A stretch of 62,656 nt of DNA, from the NCBI RefSeq assembly GCF_001434145.1, contig NZ_AZED01000011.1, positions 1-62,656 of the forward strand, read 5' to 3'. Below the pieces are notes generated by a model that saw only the letters and a list, made by a program, of their open reading frames with translations, was not told the DNA's origin and made no database searches. This DNA is from Lentilactobacillus otakiensis DSM 19908 = JCM 15040 (GTDB taxonomy: Bacteria > Bacillota > Bacilli > Lactobacillales > Lactobacillaceae). Shown here in pieces: positions 3,000 to 57,943 of the stretch. Position 1 is the first letter of the stretch, and each line of letters starts with the position of its first letter. The translations under genes were made by a program, and so were the position numbers.

Positions 3000-3137
3000 G
3001 ATTAAGTTACACTTAACCACAGAAAGTAAAAACACAGTTCCGGCTGGTAGTCCGGACGTAACTCAATTGCGAGTTATCAGTATCCTTCCTCCTAGGTCGT
3101 CCATCTTTCTGAATCAAACAATTAGGAGGATCTATCA
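3000..3137 (+). promoter_or_regulatory. Putative yjdF-type (azaaromatic) riboswitch
   Basis: A structured leader of about 130 bases lies directly upstream of a yjdF homologue. Visible elements are a hairpin TTCCGG/CCGGA (about 3038-3058), a hairpin AACTC/GAGTT (3060-3076), and an anti-Shine-Dalgarno TCCTCCTA at 3087-3094. The last is the exact complement of the ribosome site TAGGAGGA at 3123-3130. This suggests translational control by sequestering the ribosome site. Established knowledge: many yjdF genes follow the yjdF RNA motif, which binds azaaromatic compounds. The match here rests on gene context and pairing, not on a covariance-model score. Confidence 0.7.
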
Positions 3138-3138
3138 A

Positions 3139-3567
3139 ATGAATACAATTACCAGTCAGCTAACCATTGTCTTTGATCCACCATTTTATAAGGCAATTTT
3201 TGAAAGAAGAACTAAGGACAGCTATGAAGTTGCTCAAGTTGTCCTGGGCTCTTCAGAACCTAAAACGCCTTTAATTACCGACTTAGTAATTAATAAATGG
3301 TCAAGGATTCAGTTCTTTGAAGCCACTTCTGACACAAAATCAAAATTGGCCGCAACGACAAAAGTTAATCCGAAACGGTTACAACGTTTGGCTCGAAAAA
3401 CCATGACATCCAATACAAGTTCAAAAGCTCAGGCAGCCTTGAAGAAAGCATTCGAAAAGTCAAAGCAAACGCAGAAACATTCGAGTGTTTTGCAGAAGGC
3501 CGTTGTGCAAGAACAAGAATACCGATTGCGGAAGTCTAAAAGAATTGAAAAACATAAGGGACATTAA
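3139..3567 (+). CDS. yjdF: YjdF family protein (DUF2992)
   Basis: A 142-residue protein resembling YjdF of Bacillus. The N-terminal beta-rich part (QLTIVFDPPFYKAIFER) is typical, followed by a very basic C-terminal half rich in Lys, Arg and Gln. An upstream in-frame extension exists, but the perfect AGGAGGA ribosome site 8 bases before ATG 3139 fixes this start, and the extension would overlap the structured leader. Its biochemical role is unknown. Its control by an azaaromatic-sensing RNA in other species suggests a part in handling toxic heteroaromatic compounds. It is monocistronic with its own terminator. Confidence 0.85.
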   Translation: MNTITSQLTIVFDPPFYKAIFERRTKDSYEVAQVVLGSSEPKTPLITDLVINKWSRIQFFEATSDTKSKLAATTKVNPKRLQRLARKTMTSNTSSKAQAALKKAFEKSKQTQKHSSVLQKAVVQEQEYRLRKSKRIEKHKGH

Positions 3568-13348: not shown

Positions 13349-13373
13349 GTTGGTTTATTTTGTGGGCTCTAAC

Positions 13374-13580
13374 TGTCCCACTCGAATTATTCATTCCATA
13401 TAATATTGCAGGCATGGACGCGAGCATTTTACTGACTGCACCCTTCGGCTTTTGAGCTATGCTCCGACGACCTAGGGCCCTACTGTACAAGAAGAAGCTG
13501 GTAACAATGAACAAAATGCGTTCATCATTACCAGCTTCTTCTTGTACTCCGGGCCCTAACCAGGTCTCGTCGCACACTAC
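13374..13580 (-). repeat. Structured repeat, copy B (long form)
   Basis: About 200 bases shared with copy C (23784-24020). On the plus strand the core CCCTTCGGCTTTTGAGCTAT is followed by GCTCCGACGACC and then a long hairpin. The arm pairs are CGACG/CGTCG, ACCT/AGGT, GGGCCC/GGGCCC, a 19-bp perfect stem starting TACAAGAAGAAG, and ATGAAC/GTTCAT around a 7-base loop. Conserved asymmetric bulges separate the stems. Compared with copy C the arms differ on both sides while pairing is kept. No transposase or obvious target duplication was seen. Confidence 0.8.
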
Positions 13581-13587
13581 CAAAAAG

Positions 13588-13617
13588 GAACCCGCACATT
13601 ATTTGCGAGTTCCCTTC
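13588..13617 (-). terminator. Terminator of the small peptide unit
   Basis: On the minus strand GGAAC-CGCA/TGCG-GTTCC is followed by TTTTTGG, 14 bases after the stop of the 17-codon ORF. Confidence 0.75.
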
Positions 13618-13630
13618 TCAAATGCATCAA

Positions 13631-13684
13631 CTATTTTAATTCGTTCTCCACAGCTGATGCCTTAAGAAATATTCCACTATTCAA
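13631..13684 (-). CDS. Candidate 17-residue peptide gene
   Basis: TTG-started ORF encoding MNSGIFLKASAVENELK, 9 bases after a perfect AAGGAGGTGAT ribosome site. It has its own promoter (TTGCAT-17-TATTCT) and its own terminator, so the unit is complete although tiny. The peptide has a short hydrophobic N-terminal part and a charged C-terminus. No family is recognised. An ATG inside the ribosome site gives only four codons. It could be a real microprotein, a regulatory leader peptide or a dual-function small RNA. Expression is not proven. Confidence 0.45.
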   Translation of the reverse strand: MNSGIFLKASAVENELK

Positions 13685-13756: not shown

Positions 13757-14248
13757 TCAGTCATCATAGTCATTTTCGTGGTCATTCTGTAAAACGTCAT
13801 CGCCCACCCAGTAGTGCTGGTTAGACTTGCTGTTATCAAATGTCACGCGATAAAAGTCTTCATGGTCAAACTCGTTATCGTCGTCATCCTTGAACGTTGC
13901 CACTGCCTTTTTATCAACATGAACTTTCGTCTTGGCAGTAACCTTTAAATCATCCCACTGATAAATCTTGTTATGATCCACCGTTCCTGGTAGATCCTTA
14001 TAAACATTTTCTTCCAAGTATTCGTGATCCAGCGTCGTTGTGAAATTTACCTTTTCATAACGGACCTTTTCTGCGCGCTTTGCGTTAGATGTTGTTGGGG
14101 TCACCTCTGAAGTGCTTGTGGAACTTGTTTGTTCCGTTTTAGTGCTGCTGGAACTGCTGCTATTGGAACTACCGGAATTATTCGAGCAGCCAAATAATCC
14201 CAAAGGTAGAACCAGCATCAAACCAACCGTAATCAATGCCTTTTTCAT
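13757..14248 (-). CDS. Lipoprotein with SH3-like C-terminal domain
   Basis: 163 residues. The signal peptide ends in the lipobox LFGC (about residues 17-20), so the mature protein is anchored to the outer face of the membrane through a diacylglyceryl cysteine. A Ser/Thr/Asn-rich linker follows. The C-terminal 100 residues match the 6474-6980 protein (VNFTTTLDHEYLEENVY, VDKKA, DDDDN, EDFYRV, HYWV). ATG 14248 follows TAGGAGG. It is a surface protein of unknown role, probably displaying the same small domain as its paralogue by a different anchor. Confidence 0.8.
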   Translation of the reverse strand: MKKALITVGLMLVLPLGLFGCSNNSGSSNSSSSSSTKTEQTSSTSTSEVTPTTSNAKRAEKVRYEKVNFTTTLDHEYLEENVYKDLPGTVDHNKIYQWDDLKVTAKTKVHVDKKAVATFKDDDDNEFDHEDFYRVTFDNSKSNQHYWVGDDVLQNDHENDYDD

Positions 14249-14351
14249 CGTTCGGCCTCCTATCATAAAGTCGTTTGTCAGATATTGTCTTTATTATAAA
14301 TGATTAGGCAACATAAACCCAACAAACCGCTTAAATCAAGAAGCAAGCAAT

Positions 14352-23769: not shown

Positions 23770-23783
23770 TTGGGTTTGGGGCA

Positions 23784-24020
23784 CTATTCTAGTCGGTAAC
23801 GATGAACAAGAACCGTTCCACTCGTATGGTTCATCCAAACTGATGTCACTGGGATAGACGCAGTCATTTTATTTACAGCTCCCTTCTGCTTTTGAGCTAT
23901 GCTCCGACGCAACTGATCCCTACTGCACAAATAAAAGCGGCCAACGATGAACAAAAAACGTTCATCATTGGCCGCTTTTACTTGTGCCCCGGGATCAACC
24001 GTTGCTCGTCGCACACTTAC
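23784..24020 (-). repeat. Structured repeat, copy C (long form)
   Basis: Homologous to copy B along about 200 bases, with the same core (CCCTTCTGCTTTTGAGCTAT, GCTCCGACG). Its hairpin arms are CGACGCAAC/GTTGC-CGTCG, TGATCCC/GGGATCA, CACAA/TTGTG, AAAAGCGGCCAA/TTGGCCGCTTTT and ATGAAC/GTTCAT. Several of these differ from copy B on both strands, so pairing is preserved by paired changes. It ends at the base before the stop codon of the SDR gene (24021-24023), on whose minus-strand transcript it would form the 3' untranslated region. Confidence 0.8.
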
Positions 24021-24755
24021 TTACATTGCCGTCATTCCGCCATCGATCACGAATTCCGATCCCGTTGAGTAGCTTGCGTCATCCGATGCTAAGAACAGCA
24101 CCATCTTTGACACTTCTTCCGGTTCCGCAACTCTTTGTAGTGGAATTGATTTTGCAAATTGTTTAATAACTTCTTCGCTGTCACCTTGGTGAATCATTGG
24201 TGTTGAAATCACACCCGGGTGAACTGAGTTGACTCTGATATGTGAGCCAGCCAACTGCAGTGCAGCTGCTTTGGTCATCCCACGAACCGCAAACTTGGTA
24301 TCCGTGTAACCAATTGCGCCACCAACCAAACCGTTCATTGAAGAAATATTAACGATACTACCGCTGCCATTCTTCTTCATTGCTTCAGCAGCATACTTCA
24401 TTCCCAAGAAGACAGAGAGTTGATTGATCTTGAAGATCTTCATGTAGTCATCAACCGTCATATCAGAAAGTGGTTTGTTAAAACTAATCCCGGCATTGTT
24501 GACTAAAATATCCAACTTGCCAAATTTCTGAACCGTTTCGTCAATCACTTTCTTCCAGTCGTCTTCACTGGAAACATCCTGTTTGATAAAAATGGCGTTG
24601 TCGCCTAATTCCTTAGCCAACGCATTACCCTTCTCATCATTGATGTCGGTAATTGCCACTTTAGCACCCTCATCAATAAATAGCTTTGCATGACTGGCAC
24701 CCATTCCTTGCGATGCGCCGGTAATAATTGCAACTTTGTTATCTAATTTTCCCAT
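24021..24755 (-). CDS. Short-chain dehydrogenase/reductase
   Basis: A 244-residue classical SDR. TGASQGMGASHA binds the nucleotide, NNAG is present, and the catalytic Ser-Tyr-Lys is in ISSMNGLV and YTDTKFAV. The Asp at the end of beta-2 (VAITDIND) favours NAD over NADP. It resembles lactobacillus alcohol dehydrogenases and glucose 1-dehydrogenase-like SDRs; the C-terminal GSEFVIDGGMTAM is close to the former group. Substrate not decided. GGAGGTAT precedes ATG, and a cre-like site lies between promoter and start. Structured repeat copy C abuts the stop codon. Confidence 0.88.
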   Translation of the reverse strand: MGKLDNKVAIITGASQGMGASHAKLFIDEGAKVAITDINDEKGNALAKELGDNAIFIKQDVSSEDDWKKVIDETVQKFGKLDILVNNAGISFNKPLSDMTVDDYMKIFKINQLSVFLGMKYAAEAMKKNGSGSIVNISSMNGLVGGAIGYTDTKFAVRGMTKAAALQLAGSHIRVNSVHPGVISTPMIHQGDSEEVIKQFAKSIPLQRVAEPEEVSKMVLFLASDDASYSTGSEFVIDGGMTAM

Positions 24756-35337: not shown

Positions 35338-35460
35338 AAACGTGCTCAAATCGGCTAATCCCGGCCATTTAAGGGAATAAACCAACCATTCCAGAACCAG
35401 GAATAATTGGTTTATTCCCTTAAATTGTGGGATCAAAACGCCTCTTTTCCCACTCTCATT
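35338..35460 (-). repeat. Composite intergenic repeat with giant hairpin
   Basis: The 19-mer AGCCGATTTGAGCACGTTT (minus strand, plus 35338-35356) recurs exactly at 51293-51311. Next comes a 19-bp perfect inverted repeat (arms 35367-35385 and 35407-35425, TTTAAGGGAATAAACCAA on the left) with an inner ATTCC/GGAAT stem. A GTGGG/CCCAC hairpin with a T-rich tail follows. It lies between converging genes. Confidence 0.65.
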
Positions 35461-35462
35461 TT

Positions 35463-36236
35463 TTATTTTTTACTATTCAAAGTCTCCTGATGATTGTAAC
35501 TGCCATCAAATGAGGTCAGAAAAATTACAGTCACCACCAGGATGATGCCCCAAACAGCACCAAACACCGGCCATGAGACCGTGGAATTGACAAGATGGGT
35601 AACCGAAATGCCTGGCTGCCAATCAATCAGGGCATGAATTAAGATGACCCACGTCAGCGTATTCGTTGTTAATCTGATTGAGGCGAAGATGGCACCAATC
35701 ACAAATGCATAAGTTGCCTGTTGAAGTGTTGGCAAAAAGCTCTGCCCCGATGTTAAATTCAGGAAGTGAAATAGACCAAAAAAGATGCCTGACGCCAAAG
35801 CTGCCTCGGTAAACTTATATTTGGCATTTTTGAACACGGAAAGAAAGCCCGATAACAATAACCCACGACATAGAAGTTCTTCAAAGATCCCAGCAGATAA
35901 CGCCATCATGGAGTCAGCAAGAATGGTCTTGGAATGCATCATTAAAGTCGTATGCCCAAGAAAGCTGATGAGCAGGAACAAACCACCCAAGCAAATTCCA
36001 AAGATGAATCCCCAAATTTTTGAGAAAGTTCCCAGCTTAATTCGATGTTCAAATATTTTCATCGTGCCCAATACATAGAACACAATCCCGGCAACGACTA
36101 ATGCGAAGACTAGCCGAACACCGCCACGCATTACTGGTCCGGCGCCTTTTACCGAGAAATCGATCCCCATTAATAAGATCAGGAACAAGATTGCCAGCAG
36201 AAATTCTTTTCCCCAAGTCATTTTATTTTTAATCAT
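35463..36236 (-). CDS. CPBP family intramembrane protease
   Basis: 257 residues with about eight membrane helices. The Abi/CAAX motifs are FEELLCRG (Glu-Glu-x-x-x-Arg), FFGLFHFLN (Phe-x-x-x-His) and the C-terminal IHALID (His-Ala-x-x-Asp). These are metal- or Glu-type proteases in the membrane, often linked in lactobacilli to bacteriocin immunity, but no bacteriocin gene is nearby. GTCACAAGCG precedes the ATG, so the ribosome site is weak. Monocistronic. Confidence 0.88.
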   Translation of the reverse strand: MIKNKMTWGKEFLLAILFLILLMGIDFSVKGAGPVMRGGVRLVFALVVAGIVFYVLGTMKIFEHRIKLGTFSKIWGFIFGICLGGLFLLISFLGHTTLMMHSKTILADSMMALSAGIFEELLCRGLLLSGFLSVFKNAKYKFTEAALASGIFFGLFHFLNLTSGQSFLPTLQQATYAFVIGAIFASIRLTTNTLTWVILIHALIDWQPGISVTHLVNSTVSWPVFGAVWGIILVVTVIFLTSFDGSYNHQETLNSKK

Positions 36237-41208: not shown

Positions 41209-41304
41209 TGAGGATAACCTCGCTAGGCCTGGAAGCATTTATTATACTCACTGCTCCCTTCGGCCTTTGAGCTATGCTCCGATGACCCAGGGCCCGGAGT
41301 ACAC
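41209..41304 (-). repeat. Structured repeat, copy D (short form)
   Basis: Keeps the core (plus CTCCCTTCGGCCTTTGAGC, then GCTCCGATGACC, GGGCCC), but the long inner arm is missing and a simple CTCCG/CGGAG hairpin remains. Its last base is just before the stop codon of the CorA gene (41305-41307), as with copies C and E at their genes. Confidence 0.65.
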
Positions 41305-42213
41305 TTACATTTTTCTCCTCATCTTCAACATAATCAGCATCGCCACAATTAACGCGATTGAAATGCCCAACGTCACCATCCAGGCGTACTGCAACCCTGC
41401 CAGAGGCAGCTTCACGTTCATACCATAGAATCCTGTGATAATTGTTGGCACCGCCATTGTCAGTGACCAAATCGTCAAGAACTTCATTGTGTCGTTCAGG
41501 TTATTGTTGGCAATGCTATTAAAGGTATGATCGATACGGTCGACCACCTGAGTTTCAATTTCAAACATTCGTTGAACCTGCTCACCTTCAATTTGAACAT
41601 CCTCGAACAAGTCCATTTTATCTTGGTCAGCGTTTGCACCAAAATGGGTCTTTGGTAACCGATTCAACTCACTGAGATTGGTCTGAACCGCACTGGACAA
41701 GAAAGTCAGTGTCTGTTGTAAATGGGACAGTGAAACCAAATCACTGTTCTTGGTTTTCCTGTTCAGCATCTTATCCAAATAATTGCGCTTCTTGGTAATC
41801 CCACGAGAAATTGGGATAAAACTGTCAACCACTGCAAACAATGTCTCCAGAATAAACGCGTCCACTGTCTGCACCTCTGGATTATCCATTGCAGAGTACA
41901 ATGCAGTATTCACCTCTGGGATATGGCTTTGGTTGAAGGTAAACAAAACGCCCTTATGAAGCAGCATCCCAAAAGGCTGAGTAATGTACCGTAAGGCCTG
42001 CTTATCCAATGCATATGGCGCTAAGAAAATGAACAGCTGATCGTCTTCATTTAAGTCATAAACATAGTTGGTGCTTTCATCTTTATCAGTAACGTACTCG
42101 ATGATATCCTCATCAATTCCATACTGGTCTTCTAATGTTGCACGTTCTTCTGCATTGATTTGAATCGTTTCGATCCACTTAGTGCCGTTAATCATCTTTT
42201 CGGGTTTGATCAT
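41305..42213 (-). CDS. corA: CorA-like magnesium transporter
   Basis: 302 residues. A cytoplasmic N-terminal domain of alpha/beta type and a long helix (YLDKMLNRKTKN to VDRIDHTFNS) lead to two C-terminal transmembrane helices; the loop between them has the signature GFYGMN. This is the CorA MIT family, pumping or passively conducting Mg2+ (or Co2+). It ends with a short basic tail (LKMRRKM). ATG 42213 follows GGGGGATT; longer in-frame extensions lack a ribosome site. Confidence 0.9.
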   Translation of the reverse strand: MIKPEKMINGTKWIETIQINAEERATLEDQYGIDEDIIEYVTDKDESTNYVYDLNEDDQLFIFLAPYALDKQALRYITQPFGMLLHKGVLFTFNQSHIPEVNTALYSAMDNPEVQTVDAFILETLFAVVDSFIPISRGITKKRNYLDKMLNRKTKNSDLVSLSHLQQTLTFLSSAVQTNLSELNRLPKTHFGANADQDKMDLFEDVQIEGEQVQRMFEIETQVVDRIDHTFNSIANNNLNDTMKFLTIWSLTMAVPTIITGFYGMNVKLPLAGLQYAWMVTLGISIALIVAMLIMLKMRRKM

Positions 42214-42380
42214 CTGACAATCCCCCTGTAAGTTATTAAGTTCTATTTTAGACCAAAAAATATCAAACCGCAGACAATTTTTCAAATTGTCACCATCTTC
42301 CCTCTCATCTACTAGATGGACGGTAGCGTTTCCATTCCCCACGTTAACCACCTTGGAATTCCAATCTCATTTAATTACCA

Positions 42381-44490: not shown

Positions 44491-44578
44491 GTGACGATCT
44501 CCTTTCGAGATTAACGTTACCCTCATTATAAGCCAACAATCGAATCTTCAGGCAATCTTACCCGAAAAATGCTTCTAT

Positions 44579-44607
44579 TTGCTTTTTTCAAATTTACCTG
44601 TTATAGT
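44579..44607 (+). promoter_or_regulatory. csp promoter
   Basis: TTGCTT (44579-44584) and TATAGT (44602-44607), 17 bases apart. They give a leader of about 110 bases before the cold shock gene, typical of csp mRNAs. Confidence 0.65.
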
Positions 44608-44724
44608 ACAGATAATGTATTTAGCTTCGAAACAAGGTCCATCGTTCTACTAAGAATGACTCCTTACTTTTCAAGTTTCAAATGCAAAATTTATCGCGCT
44701 ATGCGCAACGGAGGTTTCATTCTT

Positions 44725-44928
44725 ATGGAACAAGGTACTGTTAAATGGTTTAATGGAGACAAAGGTTACGGTTTTATCACTTTAGAAGACGGCAAGGACG
44801 TTTTTGTTCACTTCTCAGCTATCAATGCTGACGGTTACAAGACCCTTGAAGAAGGCCAAAAGGTCACTCTTGACGTTGAAGACAGCGATCGTGGCCCACA
44901 AGCTGCTAACGTTTCAGTTGTTGAATAA
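44725..44928 (+). CDS. cspA: Cold shock protein
   Basis: A 67-residue single OB-fold protein with RNP1 (KGYGFITL) and RNP2 (VFVHF), the nucleic-acid binding signatures of CspA/CspB. It binds single-stranded RNA and DNA and eases translation at low temperature or in stationary phase. GGAGG sits 10 bases before ATG. An in-frame region upstream is part of the long leader. The leader may act as a temperature-responsive element as in other csp genes. Monocistronic with a short terminator. Confidence 0.97.
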
Positions 44929-44946
44929 TTAAATCAAACAAAAAAT

Positions 44947-44974
44947 AAAAGCCTCCTGTGAGGGGCTTTTTTTG
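44947..44974 (+). terminator. csp terminator
   Basis: AAAAGCC-CCT/AGG-GCTTTT hairpin with a T-run. Confidence 0.85.
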
Positions 44975-45036
44975 TTGAAAAAATTTTGGGGAACAGGTTG
45001 ACTAAGTTTGCCAGCCGCTCACCCAAAAGATTAATC

Positions 45037-57435: not shown

Positions 57436-57632
57436 AATTTAATCAACCTCATTATCGTATTTACTATTATTTTATCATTATTATGTGCGTTGCTTTATCA
57501 TTTAGCATCCAGTTCTGATTCTACACTTTTTAACAAATTCGACAACCATACTTGAAATGCTACTGTAAGGCGTTTGCACAACGTTTACAAGGATAGCAGG
57601 GAAAGCTTAAGAGGAACTTAAAGTTGGGAGAG

Positions 57633-57769
57633 AGTGTGCCGAGCAACGGTTTGACACGCCAGGTAGGCTAGGCATTTCGTGGCCGTCGGAGAGCTAAGGC
57701 TTCTCTGGTTTAAATCCCGGGTTTGGATTTGAATCAGAGAATCTTAGATCGCAGTGTCAGTTGCGTCGA
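57633..57769 (+). repeat. Structured repeat, copy F1 (branched form)
   Basis: On the plus strand, CGAGCAACGGTTTGACAC (57640-57657) pairs with GTGTCAGTTGCGTCG (57754-57768) apart from small bulges. In copy C the same stem is TGATCCC/GGGATCA with the same flanking CGAGCAAC and GTTGCGTCG. Between the arms lies a second hairpin (57694-57747, CTAAG-TTCTCTG-AAATCC on the left). It is in the opposite genome orientation to copies B-E. Confidence 0.6.
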
Positions 57770-57790
57770 AACACGTTTGGAGTGTGACGA

Positions 57791-57881
57791 AAGGCGGTTT
57801 GCTTCCGGTGCATAACCTAGGATAACTTTTTGAGCTGCAGGCTCGGAAAGTTATCCTAGGCTATGCGTAGGAAGCAGCCTT
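57791..57881 (-). repeat. Structured repeat, copy F2
   Basis: A perfect long stem CCTAGGATAACTTT/AAAGTTATCCTAGG is extended by GCATA/TATGC, GCTTCC/GGAAGC and AAGGC/GCCTT. Its loop region reads TTTTTGAGCTGCAGGCTCGG, close to the family core TTTTGAGCTATGCTCCG. I read it as a second, inverted copy next to F1. The gap 57436-57989 contains nothing else that I could identify. Confidence 0.5.
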
Positions 57882-57943
57882 GAGGAACACGTTCTGGCTA
57901 TGTAAAAAGAAAAAACAAAGGGTCAATATCATATAGCTGCCAA

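Follow-up and report, generated by a model that had tools for sequence, protein, structure and literature searches.

ERIC and the NEMIS/Correia elements are repeat families defined by shared sequence. The EFAR repeats of enterococci, members of the same order as the bacterium considered here, are modular and polymorphic, are inserted at stem-loops near gene ends, and form two stem-loops in an L shape, with types defined by sequence. Integron attC sites lie after the stop codons of genes, conserve their fold more than their sequence and are recognized on one strand; they occur in clustered cassette arrays with an integrase and have their own core sites. The cited points that follow come from excerpts of the papers named. 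EFAR palindromic repeats are listed among the bacterial MITEs (PMC3733652, citing De Gregorio 2009). BOX, RUP and SPRITE of pneumococcus are dispersed folded repeats, of which BOX is modular and in some cases transcribed while SPRITE is enriched near the 3' ends of CDSs; all three are defined by sequence HMMs and are nearly absent from streptococci other than S. mitis, and the words "compensatory" and "covari" do not occur in the available text of that account (PMC3049150). The bcr1-bcr18 repeats of Bacillus cereus are MITE-like and often found in UTRs, bcr10 and bcr18 having a conserved secondary structure (PMC3446304). GTAG/CGTC-tagged REPs, 20-40 bp in length, lie mostly downstream of genes, and the GTAG termini often supply a TAG stop codon to flanking ORFs (PMC3733652). 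Lastly, ERIC at gene 3' ends alters transcript levels, and Correia (NEMIS) elements are cut by RNase III (PMC10969869).

The window analysed here is a 62,656-nucleotide stretch of the Lentilactobacillus otakiensis DSM 19908 genome (2.35 Mb in 21 contigs). The original prediction placed a dispersed repeat with compensating hairpin-arm changes at 13374-13580 (copy A) and 23784-24020 (copy B). Both copies are present at these positions, and the quoted differences between their arms were found in the sequence. A repeat search of the window paired 13371-13553 with 23811-23993 (74% identity over 183 nt); within each copy the element proper is the shorter stretch listed in Table 1, read in both cases on the minus strand. 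Beyond these two, the window holds two diverged members and one deleted remnant. Copy A begins 3 nt past the five Ts of a terminator-like hairpin and copy B 3 nt past a TAA stop codon; the diverged minus-strand member sits 6 nt after the TAA of ORF 35463-36236 (-), and the remnant directly follows the TAA of ORF 41305-42351 (-). The plus-strand member at 57779 is an exception to this gene-end location, no ORF of ≥60 codons ending within 60 nt upstream of it. In the open-access PMC literature, judged by titles and abstract openings, we found no description of this element.

Table 1. Elements and associated features in the window (R1, covariance model described in the text)
Feature	Position	Strand	Evidence
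Copy A, full element, folding as one long irregular hairpin with P1, facing GA/GA, P2, 5' bulge, P3, internal loop and P4 of ~30 bp	13460..13578	-	best R1 match, 132.8 bits; fold
Copy A tail (TAGCTCAAAAGCCGAAGGGTGCAG...), of a type common to other AGTGTG-type copies	13374..13459	-	repeat families D1/D2; flank listing
Intrinsic-terminator-like hairpin with T-run	13582..13614	-	sequence; orthologous-site alignment
Copy B, full element	23900..24017	-	R1, 126.8 bits
Copy B tail with a second, degenerate hairpin piece (ATGAAC / GTTCAT)	23784..23899	-	repeat search; folds
Copy B host gene, short-chain dehydrogenase/reductase (SDR)	24021..24755	-	ORF; Pfam adh_short_C2, E 1.7e-66
Diverged member, AGAGTGGGAAAAGAGGCGTTTTGATCCC... 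type	35343..35456	-	R1, 56.1 bits; fold
Internally deleted remnant	~41225..41303	-	third copy of repeat D2, 41225-41295, 83% over 71 nt
First tandem unit, weak match, with GCCAGGTAGGCTAGGC-type accessory insert	57631..57773	+	R1, 24.3 bits (L171 862-1004); fold
Diverged member, second tandem unit	57779..57889	+	R1, 61.2 bits; fold
Azaaromatic (yjdF) riboswitch aptamer	3016-3120	+	Rfam, 82.7 bits
cspA thermoregulator match over ORF 44569-44928	44592-44975	+	Rfam, 89.4 bits

A 17-codon ORF (13631-13684, minus strand; LNSGIFLKASAVENELK) with a TTG start lies behind a Shine-Dalgarno-like sequence, GGAGGTGATG, between the terminator-like hairpin beside copy A and ORF 13757-14266. This stretch is closely conserved in all five species aligned, and the ORF may possibly encode a small protein.

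Copy A used as a blastn query gave 45 matches in its own genome at E≤10, the weakest of which look like chance. For the covariance model, R1, 64 copies were found by a sequence HMM and aligned by MAFFT without reference to structure. At E≤0.1 the model has 110 matches in the genome, antisense echoes of the palindromes included. Our working set is a dispersed family of 73 sense-strand copies, four of them in the window (copies A and B and the two diverged members of Table 1), from which antisense echoes, partial matches (e.g. L179-L183) and weak matches (L178, 27.9 bits; L163 724-834, 34.1 bits; and the first tandem unit of Table 1) were excluded.

The element is approximately 110-120 nt long, excluding its tail, and follows, from 5' to 3', the plan AGAGYGY - GA - P2 (~8 bp) - GGTT-like bulge - P3 (7 bp) - internal loop - P4 - P3' - P2' - GA - RCRC GTTT, in which P4 (~30 bp) is largely arbitrary in sequence. 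The outer helix, P1, covaries: pair 5-127 is UA in 37 copies, CG in 14, UG in 6 and AU in 3, and pair 7-125 is CG in 38, UA in 17 and UG in 3. Between P1 and P2 two GA dinucleotides face each other (GA at 8-124 in 56 of 64 copies; AG at 9-123 in 48 of 64, with AA in 10), most simply read as tandem G.A pairs. This motif rests mainly on the 64-copy alignment; a strict regular expression for the GA/GA plan was passed in full by 11 of 53 diverged or foreign copies. Sarcin-ricin and kink-turn motifs were weighed by eye and are not claimed. The ends of the element pair imperfectly as P1 (AGAGTG / CACGTTT), and no clear terminal inverted repeats were seen by eye. In 34 of 37 foreign copies a GTT/GATT motif comes next after the modelled end, in a stretch that is mostly outside the model. 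The common plan is shared by subfamilies whose P2, P3, loop and tail differ, and both tandem units and an accessory insert of the GCC(A/G)AGTAGGCTAGGC type occur. This accessory module, GCC(A/G)AGTAGGCTAGGC...GGCCGTCGGAG, is found near the internal loop or after P2', varying by copy (L026, L025, L091 and L042; e.g. L026 1055-1203), and is like an exchangeable cassette.

Against dinucleotide shuffles the folding z-scores were -8.3 for 13405-13585 on the plus strand, -9.9 for the same stretch on the minus strand and -8.5 for 23780-24025 on the plus strand, and none of 200 shuffles of each folded as well as the natural sequence. In the 64-copy structure-blind alignment 97.1% of the cells of a 45-pair structure are standard pairs, and 37 of the 45 pairs show two-sided change; two-sided changes affect 498 cells, compared with 131.8 on average after shuffling, and none of 500 shuffles reached the observed count. 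When the partner columns are slid by 1-3 positions pairing falls to 33-47%. A simplified test modelled on R-scape, with a FastTree tree, substitutions reassigned among its branches, an APC-corrected G-test and 40 simulations, found 12 of the 45 pairs significant (E<0.05) and none of 7,581 off-structure pairs. The 38 matches from outside the genus have 94.3% of cells paired, with slides at 36-42%, and every one of the 45 pairs changes two-sidedly somewhere among them, in an alignment that, being fitted to the model, leans to structure; its one antisense row was kept in these pairing figures and removed from the G·U and A·C counts given below. Selection on the structure itself, as originally proposed, is supported in the structure-blind alignment, against the simplified tree null and in the non-genus matches, and covariation in the wider alignment exceeds the phylogenetic null. 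The family keeps one folded shape while much of its sequence changes. The element also proved to be no Rfam family in the stretches searched: the cspA and yjdF RNAs are the only matches in the window at gathering score, and permissive scans of copy A and six loci returned only sub-threshold matches, e.g. miRNA-like hairpins and leaders.

The position of the element relative to genes is strongly one-sided. In 44 of 66 non-tandem copies the start lies no more than 9 nt from the same-strand stop codon of an ORF of ≥100 codons, and none of the 66 is so placed at its other end (Fisher p 1.6e-18). As some of the short near-stop ORFs were chance frames, minima of 100 and 150 codons were used; with the latter the counts are 34/66 and 0/66. 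The remaining 22 and 32 copies, respectively, have no such stop within that distance. Sixteen of the 66 start exactly at -2, and all of these have a TAG overlapping the first two bases of the element, so that its AG completes the stop codon. For the 29 non-tandem copies from outside the genus the ORF minimum was 60 codons; 13 lie near the end of such an ORF, and again none does so at its other end. In one copy (L029 1472-1590, minus strand) the host ORF seems to enter the element and to end at a TAG inside the bulge (distance -23).

A Pfam scan of 30 of the 46 near-stop proteins gave matches at E≤1e-8 for 29, with no common function evident. The host genes include those for a gyrase-B-type topoisomerase subunit, topoisomerase I, MnmG, the ribonucleotide reductase small chain, arabinose isomerase, peptide deformylase, a release factor, 6PGD and SDRs. 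The copy L123 1501-1619 (C17:3617) directly follows the gyrase-B-type topoisomerase gene, so identified by Pfam. gyrA usually follows gyrB in an operon, and if the host gene is gyrB this element may lie inside one. Another copy, L193 5773-5890 (-), and its orthologs in three relatives (G022, G006 and G005) come directly after a conserved sequence that looks like a TPP aptamer, and the element is absent in a fourth (G009); the TPP riboswitch label was dropped because there was no Rfam match at gathering score.

R1 matches at E≤1e-4 occur in 17 of 24 genomes of the genus, seven having none. In the family 33 of 151 genomes and 13 of 40 genera, the source genus included, have a match, and in the order the matches come from 12 of 295 genomes and 9 of 74 genera, with three other families among them; the family- and order-wide tallies are lower bounds, because filters were stricter and few candidates were scored in searches spanning over 40 genomes. 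Matches in the other families are weaker; in one of these families (f3) the best match scores 44.5 bits and two others ca. 35 bits. The plan is visible by eye in the foreign loci inspected (17 from other genera and 13 more), least clearly in L242 and L249. With copy A as query, blastn gave no match in 36 genomes from other genera; the covariance model, run on another and larger set of genomes, recovered members in 12 genera of the family besides the source genus. Of 36 stretches from a pattern scan of genome contigs 25 are from Lentilactobacillus (named species being L. sunkii, L. parakefiri, L. rapi, L. kefiri, L. parabuchneri and L. dabitei), one is from Limosilactobacillus panis, and ten from unrelated taxa were taken as chance. 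The L. panis scaffold has two element matches (L092 2857-2970, plus strand, and 3089-3287, minus strand), one of which follows the stop of a VDGGMQFQ-type SDR gene as in Lentilactobacillus; these may reflect transfer or contamination. Six Levilactobacillus brevis plasmids carry the element, which on the two with annotation examined starts approximately 5 nt downstream of a MgtC/SapB gene. The L. brevis plasmid pLBN-1 has a second full copy (L234 4133-4251) beside a CorA gene, ca. 1.2 kb from an IS30-like transposase gene. A phage origin was rejected: copy A had no blastn match in 50,697 phage records, and none of four IMG/VR pattern hits matched the model at E≤0.001.

Orthologous gene ends were compared between the source genome and four relatives. 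Of 57 model hits in the five species, 37 have an ORF end within 60 nt upstream and form the 18 sites compared; the other 20 have none. Occupancy varies by site, some being occupied in one species only and others in four or five. At C4:207487 the source genome reads TA-GAGTGTG while the four relatives have TAA followed by terminator-like sequence and no element. The SDR gene of copy B carries different subfamilies in the source genome, G022 and G009, and its site is empty in G006 and G005. Short, dispersed, and present or absent among relatives, the element behaves in these respects as MITEs do. As the original prediction had observed, no transposase or target duplication came to light: no mobiliser was found (Y1_Tnp was searched for), and no duplication is clear, the occupied and empty sites aligning too poorly at the 3' flank, with a TA duplication possible at one site.

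In-place change was followed in five chosen groups of sites. The site C4:142083 is occupied at -2 in all five species. There, 8 of 45 pairs have changed two-sidedly, two one-sidedly and none is broken between the source genome and G006; the figures against G005 are 6 two-sided, 5 one-sided and none broken. This comparison is limited to three of the five species, because G022 and G009 have different element ends. At the FAAGNDLP site 12 pairs changed two-sidedly between the source genome and G022, but 9 of 45 are broken in one copy, and one subfamily may have been replaced there by another; at the QTLIVDGGMQFQ site one or two pairs are broken in every comparison. Compensatory change in place at some orthologous sites suggests selection after insertion; gene conversion between copies could mimic such change.

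We lean, if only somewhat, towards reading the family as a MITE-like, non-autonomous mobile element that spreads to gene ends and acts there as a 3'-UTR hairpin. A substantial, though lesser, possibility is that the element is purely selfish, its fold being conserved solely because a mobilising enzyme recognizes the folded single strand (ssDNA or an RNA intermediate), as with integron attC sites and REP/RAYT hairpins. The element would then have no role in mRNA, and gene ends would be the sites where its insertion does no harm. The constancy of architecture while sequence varies across subfamilies and genera would be expected on these grounds, as would the one-species insertions, tandem arrays and remnants, the unrelated host genes, the plasmid copies and the presence of different subfamilies at one orthologous site. 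The pairing kept at some shared sites despite divergence of the arms would not be expected of dead copies unless they were constantly converted. Moreover, no mobiliser was identified: Y1 transposases occur in 7 of the 24 genus genomes but have no match in the source genome, with its ~70 copies, or in the element-rich G006, G008, G009 and G022. REP/RAYT as the mobiliser was rejected on the absence of a Y1 transposase from the source genome.

A reading of the family as intrinsic terminators, or as terminator remnants, is improbable. The elements do lie at gene 3' ends, their hairpin is very stable, and a crude scan called 13 of 32 terminator-like, in our opinion because of their T-rich 3' arms; eight of the 73 copies have ≥5 Ts in a 7-nt stretch just past the modelled end. 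In the remaining 65 no 7-nt stretch within 10 nt past that end holds five Ts, and the usual tail, CACGTTTC, has three. Furthermore, a separate terminator-like hairpin with T-run was found within 250 nt downstream of 15 of the 32 copies scanned (out of the 73), against 1 of 32 after one mononucleotide shuffle of each. Copy A itself comes after such a site, and its transcription would need read-through of the terminator-like T-run.

The balance of wobble pairs bears on which strand is folded. In the 64-copy alignment, which was oriented by sequence and not by pairing, there are 209 G·U against 25 A·C in the minus-strand frame of the window. One column pair is U.G in 48 of 64 copies, and when it is left out the counts are 161 and 25; outside the genus they are 128 and 10. 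In 71 of 73 copies the sense strand has the more stable fold, the other two being exceptions. Such an excess of G·U over A·C implies that a single-strand fold, not a symmetric cruciform, has been selected. Of the proposal "RNA or cruciform DNA", then, the single strand is favoured by both sets of counts and the symmetric cruciform disfavoured. The original prediction did not include the location at stop codons, the mobility, the facing GA dinucleotides or the occurrence in other genera. The selected form points to RNA, or to ssDNA of the same strand, as a folded single DNA strand would yield the same asymmetry; what selection preserves appears to be the folded strand itself. A process at the DNA level, in which the arms of a long palindrome are kept matched by cruciform function or template-switch correction without single-strand selection, would agree with arms that remain complementary and turn over quickly. 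It is very unlikely nonetheless: a symmetric mechanism predicts equal numbers of G·U and A·C, and neither the maintained U.G pair nor the maintained asymmetric bulges and facing GA dinucleotides fit it. A degenerate group II intron, suggested by the GUGYG-like 5' start, a tail that we take to resemble domain I, and the insertion of copy A after a terminator-like T-run, is hardly conceivable and was rejected, domain V (RF00029) being present in one of 24 genus genomes and not in the source genome, six loci having no Rfam intron match even at permissive thresholds, and the element being only ~120 nt long with one hairpin.

Our preferred reading remains that of a mobile element retained as a 3'-UTR hairpin. 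Comparison of the copies demonstrates a fold, selection on one strand, frequent starts at the stop codon on the coding strand, presence or absence among species and spread beyond the genus; the steps that follow are proposed from these sequence patterns. The element would insert in the short interval that separates the stop codon from the terminator, at times inside the stop codon, its first AG then restoring TAG. Placed there it would be co-transcribed as the first part of the 3' UTR, and we infer that its RNA form acts on the mRNA through stability or processing. The hairpin would most likely shield the 3' end from exonucleases, be cut by RNase III, or both. With such an effect an insertion would be tolerated or even of use, and its fold would then stay under selection. 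Mobility would need a putative trans-acting factor that reads the fold (P1, the facing GA, the GGTT-like bulge and the internal loop) and not the sequence.

More tentatively, the family could be an order-wide class of mobile elements with an identity inherited mainly as a single-strand fold, in which P1 closes on the stop codon and encloses the facing GA, the bulge, the internal loop and an arbitrary long hairpin. In this wider form, a possibility that we hold with some reserve, the fold would be read by a putative factor, the element would enter a stop codon or land next to one and regenerate the stop, and dozens of genes per genome would retain their copies as functional 3'-UTR RNAs. In some food-related bacteria the element marks the ends of dozens of genes in each genome. 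Two questions become testable, namely what reads the fold, and what effect a structure at the stop codon has on the mRNA.

BOX, ERIC, REP and other small repeats of this sort are recognized as families by their resemblance in sequence, while the present family is united mainly by its fold, with the consequence that sequence searches overlook much of it. Unlike EFAR, the element here is one irregular hairpin with mostly free sequence. Unlike integron attC sites, the elements are dispersed. They are dispersed and folded like BOX, RUP and SPRITE, of which SPRITE likewise lies near CDS 3' ends, as far as the excerpted account describes them. The bcr1-bcr18 repeats differ in having been described in the B. 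cereus group, with no mention of stop-codon overlap in the available text (PMC3446304). The nearest parallel to the class starting at -2 is provided by the GTAG REP termini that give TAG stops; in the excerpted description those REPs are tied to Y1 transposases, which are absent from this genome (PMC3733652).
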